This document shows, piece by piece, positions 1,543-10,768 of a stretch of 17,128 nt of DNA. Numbering within the stretch: position 1 is the first letter of the stretch; every line of letters begins with the position of its first letter. Under the pieces are notes generated by a model, which worked only from the letters and a program-made list of their open reading frames with translations, had not been told where the DNA came from and searched no databases. Source of the stretch: an uncultured Oscillospiraceae bacterium (GTDB lineage: Bacteria > Bacillota > Clostridia > Oscillospirales > Oscillospiraceae). Location of the stretch: NCBI GenBank assembly GCA_947624465.1, contig CANQKJ010000017.1:1-17128 (forward strand). The letters run 5' to 3'. The translations under genes and the position numbers were made by a program.

Positions 1543-1619
1543 TGGTACGGCAGAAGGGACTCGAACCCCCGACCTACTGGTTCGTAGCCAGTCACTCTAT
1601 CCAGCTGAGCTACTGCCGC
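1543..1619 (-). tRNA. tRNA-Arg (anticodon ACG)
   Basis: The minus strand folds as a complete cloverleaf. The acceptor stem is GCGGCAG/CTGCCGT (terminal G-U pair). The D arm contains AGCTCAGCTGGATAGAG. The anticodon stem ACTGG/CCAGT encloses the loop CTACGAA with anticodon ACG. The T arm contains GGTTCGAGTCC. The discriminator is A and the CCA end is encoded (1545-1543). ACG, with A34 normally edited to inosine, reads CGU/CGC/CGA. Total length is 77 bases including CCA. Confidence 0.97.
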
Positions 1620-7322: not shown

Positions 7323-8090
7323 ATGGAATTTTCCAACCGGCTCTATGAGCTGCGCCGGAAGGCCGGCCTCTCCCAGGAGGAACTGGCCGGCCTGCTCGGG
7401 GTCACCCGGCAGGCGGTCCAGAAGTGGGAGGCTGGCACCTCCCGGCCCGACATGGACAACCTCACCGCCCTGGCCGCCTATTTCAACGTGACATTGGACT
7501 ATCTGGTGCTGGGCAAAGAGGGGGACGCTCTCCCACCACCCGTCCAGGTGATCCACAACCACTATGGCGGCGGGTACGAATTCAGGAGCAAAGCCACCCT
7601 GTTTGGCCTGCCCCTGGTCCACATCAATGTGGGTTACGGCCTCCGCGCCGCCAGAGGGATCATCGCCATCGGGAATCTGGCGGTGGGCGTGGTGTCCATC
7701 GGCGGGGTGGCCGTGGGCGTGTTCTCCCTGGGCGGCGTCGCCCTGGGGCTGCTGTTCGCCTTGGGCGGGCTCGGCGTCGGCGCCCTGTCCCTGGGCGCGT
7801 TTGCTCTGGGCGTCATCTCCATCGGCGGAATTGCCGCCGGCTGGCTGACCTGGGGCGGCATCGCCCTTGGAAAATACGCTGTGGGAGGCGTGGCCGTCGC
7901 GTCAAAGGTCGCCATCGGCGGCGTGGTCTATGGGGGTGTGCTGGAGATCGGTGATGAGGTATCCGGCAAGGGAGGCGCCTTTTTTACCCCTCTGTCTCCC
8001 GGAGACAGGGAGGCGGCCGTCCAAACCATCTACGCCGTTGCGCCCCAGTGGGTCGCCACACTTTTGGAGTTTATCGTCAGGGTGTTTTGA
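7323..8090 (+). CDS. XRE-family regulator with hydrophobic Gly-pentapeptide-repeat C-terminus
   Basis: A 255-residue two-part protein. Residues 1-64 are an HTH_3/XRE domain (LSQEELAGLLGVTRQAVQKWEAG, then LAAYFNVTLDYLVLG), the type found in Firmicutes regulators. A linker (65-95) contains NHYGGGYEF. Residues about 110-200 are strikingly regular: units of five ending in Gly, of the type [GVA]-[VIL]-[AS]-[VIL]-G, with Gly at 117, 122, 127, 132, 137, 142, then 148 to 188 in steps of five. This could form a membrane-embedded region or a compact pentapeptide-type beta solenoid. It resembles hydrophobic tails I remember on some gut Firmicutes proteins of unknown role. GGAGG (7311-7315) precedes ATG 7323. 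The gene stands alone between two terminators. The function is likely a membrane-linked or self-assembling regulator, but this is unproven. Confidence 0.85.
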   Translation: MEFSNRLYELRRKAGLSQEELAGLLGVTRQAVQKWEAGTSRPDMDNLTALAAYFNVTLDYLVLGKEGDALPPPVQVIHNHYGGGYEFRSKATLFGLPLVHINVGYGLRAARGIIAIGNLAVGVVSIGGVAVGVFSLGGVALGLLFALGGLGVGALSLGAFALGVISIGGIAAGWLTWGGIALGKYAVGGVAVASKVAIGGVVYGGVLEIGDEVSGKGGAFFTPLSPGDREAAVQTIYAVAPQWVATLLEFIVRVF

Positions 8091-8096
8091 GCGCGC

Positions 8097-8131
8097 AAAA
8101 AAGCTGCCGCTGGATTTCAGCGGCAGCTTTT
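8097..8131. terminator. Bidirectional terminator between the XRE gene and ispH-rpsA
   Basis: AGCTGCCGCTG (8102-8112), a GATTT loop and CAGCGGCAGCT (8118-8128) form a perfect 11-bp stem. It is flanked by an A-run (8097-8102) on one side and TTTT on the other, so it can stop transcription from both converging operons. Confidence 0.92.
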
Positions 8132-8147
8132 CTATGTCTGGATGGAA

Positions 8148-10178
8148 TTATTCGGCGTCCTCGGCGGCGGGGGCCTCCTCCACGGCAGGAGCGGCCTCAG
8201 GCTCGGCGGCGGGCTCCTCTTCGGGCTCCTCCACGGGAGCGGCCTCTTCCTCGGCGGCCTTGGGTGCGTCGTTCAGGACGGCGCGGATGGACAGGGAGAC
8301 CTTCTTGTTCTCGTTGTCGATGGCGATGATCTTGGCGTCCACCACGTCGCCCTCGGACACGGCGTCGGCGGGCTTCTCCACCCGGTGGTCGGAGAGTTGG
8401 GAGATGTGGATCAGGCCGTCCACGCCGGGGACGATCTCGGCGAAGGCGCCGAAGGTCATCAGCTTGACGATGCGGACGTGGGCCACGTCGCCCACCTCAT
8501 ACTTGGAGGTGAACACGGTCCAGGGCTCCTGGCTGTGGTCCTTCATGCCCAGGGAGATCTTCCGCTTCTCCGGGTCGAAGGAGATGACATAGACCTCCAC
8601 GGGGTCGCCCACGGAGACCACCTCGGCGGGGTTCTTGATGCGGGACCAGGACAGCTCGGAGATGTGGACCATGCCGTCCACCCCGCCGATGTCTACGAAA
8701 GCGCCGTAAGAGGTCAGGCTCTTGACGGTGCCGTGATACCGCTTGCCGTTCTCGATGCTGTTCCACACCTCGGCGGCGGCGGCGGCGCGGGCCTCGGCGG
8801 CCACGGCCCGGATGGAGCCGACCACGCGGCGGCGGGCCTTGTTCACCTCGGTGATGCGCATCTTGACCTTGCTCTTGATCATGTCGGCCAAGTCGGCGCC
8901 GCGGGGCTTGCCGGACTGGGAGGCGGGGATGAACACCCGCACGCCCTTCACGTTGGCCACCAGACCGCCCTTGTTCACCTCGGTGATGGTGCCCTCCAAA
9001 GGCTCCTTGCTCTCCACGGCGTTCTCAACGGTCTCCCAGTTCTTGTGGCTCTCCAGGCGCTTCTTGGACAGGCGGATCTCGCAGTCCCGGTCGCTGTACA
9101 GCACTACCTCGGCCTCGATGGGATCGCCCACCTTGACCACGTCCTCGGGCTTGACGTCGGGATCGTCGCTCAGCTCAGACAGAGGAATGGAAGCGGTAAA
9201 CTTGGTGCCGGTCAGATCGACCTGCACTTCGGTGGGTGTGATGGCAATCACAGTCCCAGTGACCTTATCCCCCGTATTGATAGGCTTGATCGACTCCTCC
9301 AGCATATCCGCGAAGGACTGTTCGATCTCCATGATTTCGTCGCTCATTTTGTTATAGACCTCCTTTATGATCCACCCCGGCGTGGAAGCGCCGGCAGTGA
9401 TTCCAAGCGTATCGACCCTTTGGAACTGTTCCCGGTCAAGGCCATCGGCGCCCTCGGTCTGCACGGTCAGCGGACACCGCTGGGCGCAGAGCTGGGCGAG
9501 CCTCCTGGTGTTGGAGCTCCTCCGGTCTCCAATGACGATCATGCCGTCACACCGGCCGGCCAATTCCTGGGCTTCAGATTGGCGCCTGGACGTAGCACCA
9601 CATATTGTATCAAAAAATTCCGCGTTTGTACACACTTTTTTTGTGTTTTCTACGATTTTTTCCCAATCACTCCGGATCGCTGTGGTTTGGGACACAAAAG
9701 TCAGCGGTTTTCCCGCCAAATTTGGCTGTTTCTCCAAAAGGGCGGACAATCCTTGCCAGTCGGACGCTACCAGGCCGCCCCTCGTACAGCCCAGGATGGC
9801 CGCGATCTCCGGGTGGCGGGCCTCCCCGATGACCACGGGGACGCGGCCGCGCGCCTCCGCGTCCCGCACGATATCGTGGATGCGGGTCACATTGGGACAG
9901 GTGGCGTCGATGATCCTGCATCCTCGGGCGGACAGCCGCTCATAGGCGCTGTCCGGCTCCCCGTGGGCGCGGATGAGGACGGTGGATCCCGTCGGGGCCT
10001 CCTCCGGGCTGCCGATGGTGACGGCCCCCATTTCCTCCAGCCGGCGGATCACCCGCTCATTGTGGGTGAGGTGCCCCAGGAGATACACCGGCCCCTGAGC
10101 GGCGGCCTGCTCCGCCAGCTCCACCGCCCGCCGCACGCCGTAGCAGAAACCGGCGCTCTTTGCCAGCAGGATGTTCAT
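8148..10178 (-). CDS. ispH: Bifunctional IspH (HMBPP reductase) - 30S ribosomal protein S1 fusion
   Basis: A 676-residue fusion. Residues 1-275 are IspH, the [4Fe-4S] enzyme that makes IPP and DMAPP in the last step of the MEP pathway. The three cluster cysteines are Cys12 (GFCYGVRRAV), Cys94 (DATCPNV) and Cys193 (DTICGAT). Substrate residues His39, His72 and His122-Pro-Glu124 and the SSNT motif are present, and the domain ends with the usual ITAGASTPGWII. After a linker of only about 20 residues come four S1 domains (about 302-373, 391-459, 477-546, 561-633) and an acidic Glu/Ala/Pro tail (634-676). The third and fourth domains have the strongest RNA-binding signatures (YGAFVDIGGVDGMVHISELS). 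This fusion is known in Clostridia. The start overlaps the plsC stop (ATGA). A consensus internal start at 9347 could yield S1 alone. Confidence 0.95.
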   Translation of the reverse strand: MNILLAKSAGFCYGVRRAVELAEQAAAQGPVYLLGHLTHNERVIRRLEEMGAVTIGSPEEAPTGSTVLIRAHGEPDSAYERLSARGCRIIDATCPNVTRIHDIVRDAEARGRVPVVIGEARHPEIAAILGCTRGGLVASDWQGLSALLEKQPNLAGKPLTFVSQTTAIRSDWEKIVENTKKVCTNAEFFDTICGATSRRQSEAQELAGRCDGMIVIGDRRSSNTRRLAQLCAQRCPLTVQTEGADGLDREQFQRVDTLGITAGASTPGWIIKEVYNKMSDEIMEIEQSFADMLEESIKPINTGDKVTGTVIAITPTEVQVDLTGTKFTASIPLSELSDDPDVKPEDVVKVGDPIEAEVVLYSDRDCEIRLSKKRLESHKNWETVENAVESKEPLEGTITEVNKGGLVANVKGVRVFIPASQSGKPRGADLADMIKSKVKMRITEVNKARRRVVGSIRAVAAEARAAAAAEVWNSIENGKRYHGTVKSLTSYGAFVDIGGVDGMVHISELSWSRIKNPAEVVSVGDPVEVYVISFDPEKRKISLGMKDHSQEPWTVFTSKYEVGDVAHVRIVKLMTFGAFAEIVPGVDGLIHISQLSDHRVEKPADAVSEGDVVDAKIIAIDNENKKVSLSIRAVLNDAPKAAEEEAAPVEEPEEEPAAEPEAAPAVEEAPAAEDAE
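9345..9366 (-). promoter_or_regulatory. Internal ribosome binding site and ATG at the IspH/S1 junction
   Basis: On the minus strand, AAAGGAGGTC (9366-9357) is followed after about 10 bases by ATG (9347-9345), in frame, opening the peptide MSDEIMEIEQSF. It lies exactly at the end of the IspH domain and before the first S1 domain. Initiation here would give a free 399-residue S1 protein. The DNA pattern is certain; its use is inference. Confidence 0.6.
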
Positions 10179-10768
10179 TCCGCCTGCACCGCCAGGGCGC
10201 GGATGCGCCCCATCAGCTCGTCGGCGATATTCTGCAGCTCGTTGGAGCTTGGCTTGCGGCCCTCGAACTCCGGGTGAAAGGGCTGCCCGAAGACCACGGC
10301 GGTCCTGCGGAAGATCCGCTTCTTTGGGGCGATGTAAACCGGCACCAGGGGCGCGCCGGTGCGGGTGGCGAACATCACCGCCCCGGTGTGGGCCTCGGAG
10401 GTCTCCCCCTCCCTGACGCGGGTCCCCTCAGGGAAGATGAGCAGACGCTCGCCGGCCTTCAGCACCCGCAGGGCCTCCTTGACGGCGGCCACATCCGCGG
10501 AACCCCGTTTCACCCCGAAGATACCGGCTTTTTTCAGGATCCAGCCCACCACCGGCCAGCGCATGATCTCCTCTTTTGCCATCACGTGGATCTGGCGTTT
10601 CCGCCCCAGGGCGCACACCACATACAGGGGGTCTCCCGCGGTGGTGTGGTTGCCGCAAAACACGGCGGCCCCCTCCGGAATGTTCTCCGCGCCAATGATC
10701 CGCCAGGGGTGAAAGATACGCATGAACAGCCAGACCAGCGGGTAGATAACGGCGTACATTTTATTCAT
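10175..10768 (-). CDS. plsC: 1-acyl-sn-glycerol-3-phosphate acyltransferase
   Basis: A 197-residue membrane-associated acyltransferase that makes phosphatidic acid from lysophosphatidic acid. It has an N-terminal hydrophobic segment (YAVIYPLVWLFMRIF). Motif I is NHTTAGD, with the catalytic His41 and Asp46 spacing HxxxxD kept. Motif II lies around GIFGVKRG. Motif III is FPEGTR near residue 114 and motif IV is APLVPVYI near 138. The length is that of the short PlsC group. ATG 10768 has GAGGAA upstream. It overlaps the cmk stop by eight bases, and its own stop overlaps the ispH start (ATGA), giving a tight cmk-plsC-ispH-rpsA transcript. Confidence 0.94.
   Translation of the reverse strand: MNKMYAVIYPLVWLFMRIFHPWRIIGAENIPEGAAVFCGNHTTAGDPLYVVCALGRKRQIHVMAKEEIMRWPVVGWILKKAGIFGVKRGSADVAAVKEALRVLKAGERLLIFPEGTRVREGETSEAHTGAVMFATRTGAPLVPVYIAPKKRIFRRTAVVFGQPFHPEFEGRKPSSNELQNIADELMGRIRALAVQAE

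Follow-up and report, generated by a model that had tools for sequence, protein, structure and literature searches.

Does a gene that joins the metabolic enzyme IspH to ribosomal protein S1 yield only the fused polypeptide, or is S1 also translated on its own from a start nested within the gene? The question was raised by an ispH-rpsA fusion in the window, i.e. the whole stretch of 17,128 nt analysed here, which originates from contig 17 of a 78% complete assembly. On the minus strand of the window, genes for a cytidylate kinase and an acyltransferase accompany the fusion (Table 1). The fusion protein reached a whole-protein score of 677.1 bits with NF000907, the NCBIfam model of bifunctional IspH/S1 proteins (cut-off 624). 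The remaining S1 matches in the genome were 73 to 94 residues long. An Rfam scan of the window at the gathering threshold yielded one tRNA gene (positions 1546-1619, minus strand) and nothing else.

Table 1 Features of the ispH-rpsA locus (positions in the window)
Feature	Position	Strand	Basis
676-aa ORF of the ispH-rpsA fusion with a single IspH domain and S1 repeats	8148..10178	-	ORF list; NF000907; Pfam LYTB and four S1 stretches
IspH part, residues 1-277	9348..10178	-	Pfam LYTB, residues 3-278; position of Met278
Nested rpsA ORF from Met278, 399 aa	8148..9347	-	Stand-alone S1 model NF005208, 388.4 bits (cut-off 368)
Internal S1 start codon ATG, in frame	9345..9347	-	ATG or GTG after GGAGG in 273/273 SD-bearing fusions
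Internal Shine-Dalgarno AAAGGAGGTC (GGAGG = 9363-9359)	9357..9366	-	GGAGG in 273/280 fused representatives
AT-rich block, highest synonymous-codon identity of the gene (0.991, 9-codon window, GC3 0.01)	9591..9653	-	Scan of 26 near relatives
Candidate internal promoter: extended -10 element TGATACAAT within the FDTIC codons of IspH	9604..9612	-	Codon test; sigma70-like scan
-35-like hexamer TGTACA, 17 nt before TACAAT	9627..9632	-	TGTACA-17 or TTGCAA-18 in distant relatives, weak
ATGA overlap of the upstream acyltransferase stop and the ispH start, weak SD (-6.1 kcal/mol)	10175..10178	-	ORF list; duplex energy

A sequence-only reading of the window had proposed that a Shine-Dalgarno (SD) sequence and an ATG at the IspH/S1 junction allow free S1 to be made beside the fusion. 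Both elements lie where that reading placed them, the SD region encodes Lys-Glu-Val as claimed (AAG GAG GTC, K272-E273-V274), and translation from Met278, residue 278 of 676, would give the predicted 399 residues. The anticipated sizes of about 74 and 44 kDa were close to the computed masses of 73.2 kDa for the fusion and 43.2 kDa for S1. The elements do occupy the junction, but they are not exactly between the domains as had been stated: the SD is part of WIIKEV, the last conserved IspH motif, and the LYTB match extends over Met278. The spacer from GGAGG to ATG measures 11 nt, or 9 nt when counted from the end of AAAGGAGGTC. Shuffled sequences would be expected to contain 0.04 occurrences of the pattern AAGGAGGT-N6..10-ATG; the window has one. 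By itself the window proves little, because AAG (31 against 6 AAA) and GAG (54 against 13 GAA) are already common codons in this GC-rich fusion gene; the decision rests with the comparative data.

For the comparison, 402 loci were gathered from relatives, the class, the phylum, one family, chosen genomes and named GTDB genomes. Together with the window they gave 403 sequences, 390 of which had a usable junction. Of the 13 unused sequences, nine gave no IspH hit, three did not match the regex motif and one was truncated; two of the 13, L277 and L294, resemble fusions with the tail TIEEV and were left uncounted. Dereplication reduced the 390 to 349 representatives, namely 280 fused, 36 adjacent unfused and 33 scored as standalone. 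One of the last group, L377, has a frame that stays open past the junction and resembles a truncated fusion.

GGAGG was present at the KEV position in 273 of the 280 dereplicated fusions of the phylum. Among coded families, in a tally that omits 20 fused loci from named records, it occurred in all representatives of 122 out of 128 families and in none of the representatives of the other six. An alternative is that the SD-like sequence results from the W-I-I-K-E-V motif and from codon preference and has no role in initiation, a view favoured by the location of KEV within an IspH motif and by the frequency of AAG and GAG in the window gene. The synonymous sites argue strongly against it. The codons read xxG GAG in 273 of 275 testable fusions, while 58.0 were expected from the codon use of each gene (five fused representatives are omitted because xxG GAG could not encode their residues), and like tripeptides elsewhere in the same genes fell below expectation, with xxG GAG in 173/1249 against 238.7. 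GGAGG was also kept in 59 of the 62 genes with a GC3 under 0.3. The first SD codon was AAG, GAG, AGG, CAG, TTG, GGG or CGG in 277/280 fusions, so that the encoded residue varies and the final G stays. Barring a grossly biased sample, the codon test rejects a by-product of peptide and codon bias, to which we attach a next to negligible probability. Conservation of the SD and ATG at synonymous sites had been set beforehand as a test of the sequence-only reading, and it was borne out.

The start codon is coupled to the SD with the same regularity. Each of the 273 fusions with the SD has ATG or GTG downstream of GGAGG, at 11 nt in 263 of them and at 8 nt in 10; the non-ATG starts are all GTG and were found in six representatives (L290, L300, L304, L357, L360 and L364). 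Taken across the phylum, these comparisons demonstrate that selection acts on the DNA itself to keep the SD, the start codon and the distance between them. The position of the SD at the end of the IspH domain would also fit an elongation pause at the domain border that helps IspH to fold and involves no start. Such a pause site is very improbable, since it calls for an SD-like sequence that has no start codon coupled to it, and the start at fixed spacing in every SD-bearing fusion speaks against it, as do the unfused relatives described below. In addition, the residue after the junction Met is Ser, Thr, Ala or Glu in 77% of cases (n=275) compared with 30% after other internal Mets (n=2188); in this composition it looks like the residue of a true N-terminus.

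The unfused relatives served as controls. The SD was present in all 28 adjacent unfused representatives in which rpsA begins at the corresponding place but in a different frame. It was absent from all eight adjacent unfused representatives whose rpsA starts elsewhere and was found in three of the 33 ispH genes scored as standalone, one of the three being L377. An SD so largely confined to genes with an rpsA start at this place is a further point against a by-product of the peptide. The distance from the SD to the unfused rpsA start was 9, 10, 12 or 13 nt, mostly 9 or 10. In these overlapping pairs ispH ends within rpsA in a different frame, and hence the likeliest place for S1 to start is here, downstream of an SD that lies in ispH. 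The overlapping pairs thus provide the strongest argument that the sequence can work as a start. The two states also occur side by side in the coded family f42, where 60 genomes comprised eight with fusions, 49 with S1 in its own frame, one with a fusion cut by the contig end and two without a match; the DNA was examined for 23 of the 49. Conservation at synonymous sites and the shared place of SD and start in unfused relatives together lend strong support to the earlier proposal that a second start yields free S1 beside the fusion, and the gene very probably makes both. Translational coupling by termination and re-initiation does not fit the fusion, which has no stop between its parts; a stop is present in the overlapping unfused relatives.

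A FastTree phylogeny of concatenated IspH and S1 sequences, which covered 305 of the 316 fused or adjacent representatives, required at least 13 changes between the fused and the unfused state. The sample is dominated by fused genes, which makes the root uncertain; with midpoint rooting the root was fused and parsimony gave 7-10 changes from fused to unfused and 3-6 in reverse. The spacers of 9 or 10 nt in unfused and of 11 or 8 nt in fused genes indicate that the two states are related by a small indel in the stretch between SD and ATG. A fusion formed by loss of the ispH stop codon, as the sequence-only reading had suggested, is not supported in that form: ispH ends inside rpsA in another frame, the spacers differ by indels and the changes run both ways. 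Because the downstream gene retains its own ribosome-binding site, a protein fusion can form or dissolve through small frame shifts.

Would the internal start be a productive one? Duplex energies were calculated with what we take to be the anti-SD core; the organism's own 16S tail was not found in the 78% complete assembly. The median was -12.3 kcal/mol at the junction (n=276), -7.2 kcal/mol at the ispH start (n=265) and -3.0 kcal/mol at other in-frame ATGs (n=2169). In 261 of 265 genes the junction SD exceeded the ispH SD in strength, and in the window it reached -12.4 kcal/mol, against -6.1 kcal/mol at the ispH start (Table 1). The junction also lies in a region of little structure, as a median of 94% of in-gene windows were more structured (n=275). 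The spacer points in the other direction. Among flanking genes with GGAGG an 11-nt spacer is rare (3/86; the mode is 7 nt), which counts against a high output from the internal start. In Clostridium ljungdahlii, translation was reported to be most efficient when the 5' end of the ribosome-binding site was 13 nt upstream (PMC6203783); the SD described here begins farther up.

These spacings are compatible with an internal start that works but provides a minor top-up, the IspH-S1 fusion being the main S1 of the cell. Seven fusions without GGAGG at KEV bear on this point. In L324 the SD is displaced downstream by three codons and an ATG follows it at the usual distance, and L342 and L351 read GAG GGG and keep the ATG. 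The other four, L336, L353, L361 and L362, have neither SD nor internal start; a second long S1 match was sought in their genomes and none was found, so a fusion without an internal start can apparently serve. These four form a natural contrast set. The duplex energies in favour of the internal SD and the promoter-like site that many Clostridia add to it argue against a minor start, and we consider it unlikely, though deserving of attention. The claim that S1 is made in larger amounts than IspH is accordingly not established, as the far stronger internal SD speaks for it and the long spacing against it.

The promoter-like site emerged from synonymous-codon identity in 9-codon windows over 26 near relatives (mean 0.691, sd 0.120). 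Two places stood out in these otherwise GC-rich genes: the junction with 0.966 and, approximately 78 to 100 codons upstream, the AT-rich block listed in Table 1. A lesser peak at LEESIKPIN (0.935) was located 21-30 codons after the K of KEV, in the region 9270-9300 of the window. In the near relatives shown, the AT-rich block contains TGTACA-N17-TGATACAAT (9632-9604, with the 17 nt counted to TACAAT) 255 nt before the S1 start. ATA accounts for two of the 47 Ile codons in the window gene, one within the -10 element and one just before the SD.

Conservation of the TACAAT codons was assessed at loci with a found motif that reads Thr-Ile. They occurred in 26/26 near relatives (0.6 expected), in 20/23 members of the own order (2.4 expected) and in 81/109 other fusions of the own class (23.2 expected). 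They were at chance level in other classes (11/73 vs 12.9 expected), in overlapping unfused pairs (6/26 vs 4.9) and in standalone genes (6/23 vs 6.9). Within the own class, the -10 site together with the extended TG was found in 42 of 67 families; in other classes it was found in 5 of 61. The sequence logo displayed a run of T, TGATACAATATG and a weak -35 region. As this -35 region is weak and variable, the block may represent another signal in DNA or RNA, such as a protein-binding or RNase site. We regard such a signal as rather improbable given the invariant core TG-A-TACAAT, the T-rich stretch upstream of it and the presence of TGTACA-17 or TTGCAA-18 at promoter distance. Moreover, a sigma70-like scan of positions 8000-10400 returned this extended -10 site as its sole match, with 0.3 expected. 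The site is probably an internal promoter for S1.

The following scheme is consistent with these observations. Ribosomes that initiate at the start of ispH itself would produce the 676-residue IspH-S1 fusion, and AAGGAGGT within the KEV codons of IspH would recruit further ribosomes to Met278, from which the 399-residue free S1 would be made. In this genus and in many families of the class, the extended -10 element about 255 nt upstream probably gives rise to a shorter mRNA for S1 only as well. What we infer from the comparative data is the use of the start in vivo, the existence of both proteins and the ratio between them, as well as promoter activity. We estimate at about 0.86 the probability that an rpsA gene with a start of its own is nested in the fused ispH-rpsA gene, and that in many Clostridia the nested gene probably has its own promoter.

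The fusion itself has been described before as IspH-RPS1 (PMC4746011) and is the same as the one in the window, which passes the NF000907 model. That study treated it as a single polypeptide, and its main text contains none of the words start, Shine, linker or internal. The Clostridium thermocellum protein was expressed in Escherichia coli with an N-terminal tag, with which a free S1 would go unseen (PMC4746011). Genes within genes are likewise known. In RpnL/RpnS of E. coli an internal ribosome-binding site and start codon yield the C-terminal product from one frame (PMC10327210), and the ispH-rpsA fusions resemble them in having an in-frame internal ribosome-binding site and start under selection. 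A transcription start inside the gene was reported for rpn genes, and a conserved extended -10 site is the promoter candidate here. Unlike in Rpn, a whole ribosomal protein is nested behind a metabolic enzyme, the border is where two domains are fused, and the start recurs in a different frame in unfused relatives; moreover, both products were demonstrated for Rpn (PMC10327210) and are predicted from sequence in our case. Operon overlaps in which the SD of a downstream gene lies within the gene before it (PMC2784483) are represented by the 28 overlapping unfused ispH/rpsA pairs. In contrast to such overlaps, the frames coincide in the fusion and the start lies inside one long ORF with no stop in between. 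Among the literature matches listed, no title or abstract opening dealt with an internal start or promoter in ispH-rpsA, and the term 'isph' is absent from the main texts of PMC6203783, PMC8407422 and PMC3711429. Within these matches, the conserved internal start and promoter-like site of the IspH-S1 fusion appear to be new.

The fusion has been read as a bifunctional polypeptide that hints at a link between isoprenoid synthesis and the ribosome (PMC4746011). If the nested start is used, free S1 would be present in most lineages sampled and the fusion would be one of two products, so that data on the abundance, essentiality and interactions of 'IspH-S1' would need to be re-read.

IspH is an oxygen-sensitive Fe-S enzyme. 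Tentatively, the fusion may act as a tunable tether: S1 would be mostly free, a minority of ribosomes would bear S1 with IspH attached, and the internal start would set the ratio, while small frame shifts would add or drop the tether and leave the supply of S1 intact. We hold this to be doubtful. If it were true, database entries for 'bifunctional IspH/S1' would omit the main S1 product.

Two variations in gene content and length were also observed. Three genomes of the coded family f52 (G072, G098 and G143) contain a separate S1-like gene in addition to the fusion, with approximately 350 residues and 37-39% identity to the query. In the coded families f32 and f44, the fusions L181, L182, L184, L189 and L193 have longer frames of 775-861 aa, which suggests additional S1 repeats.
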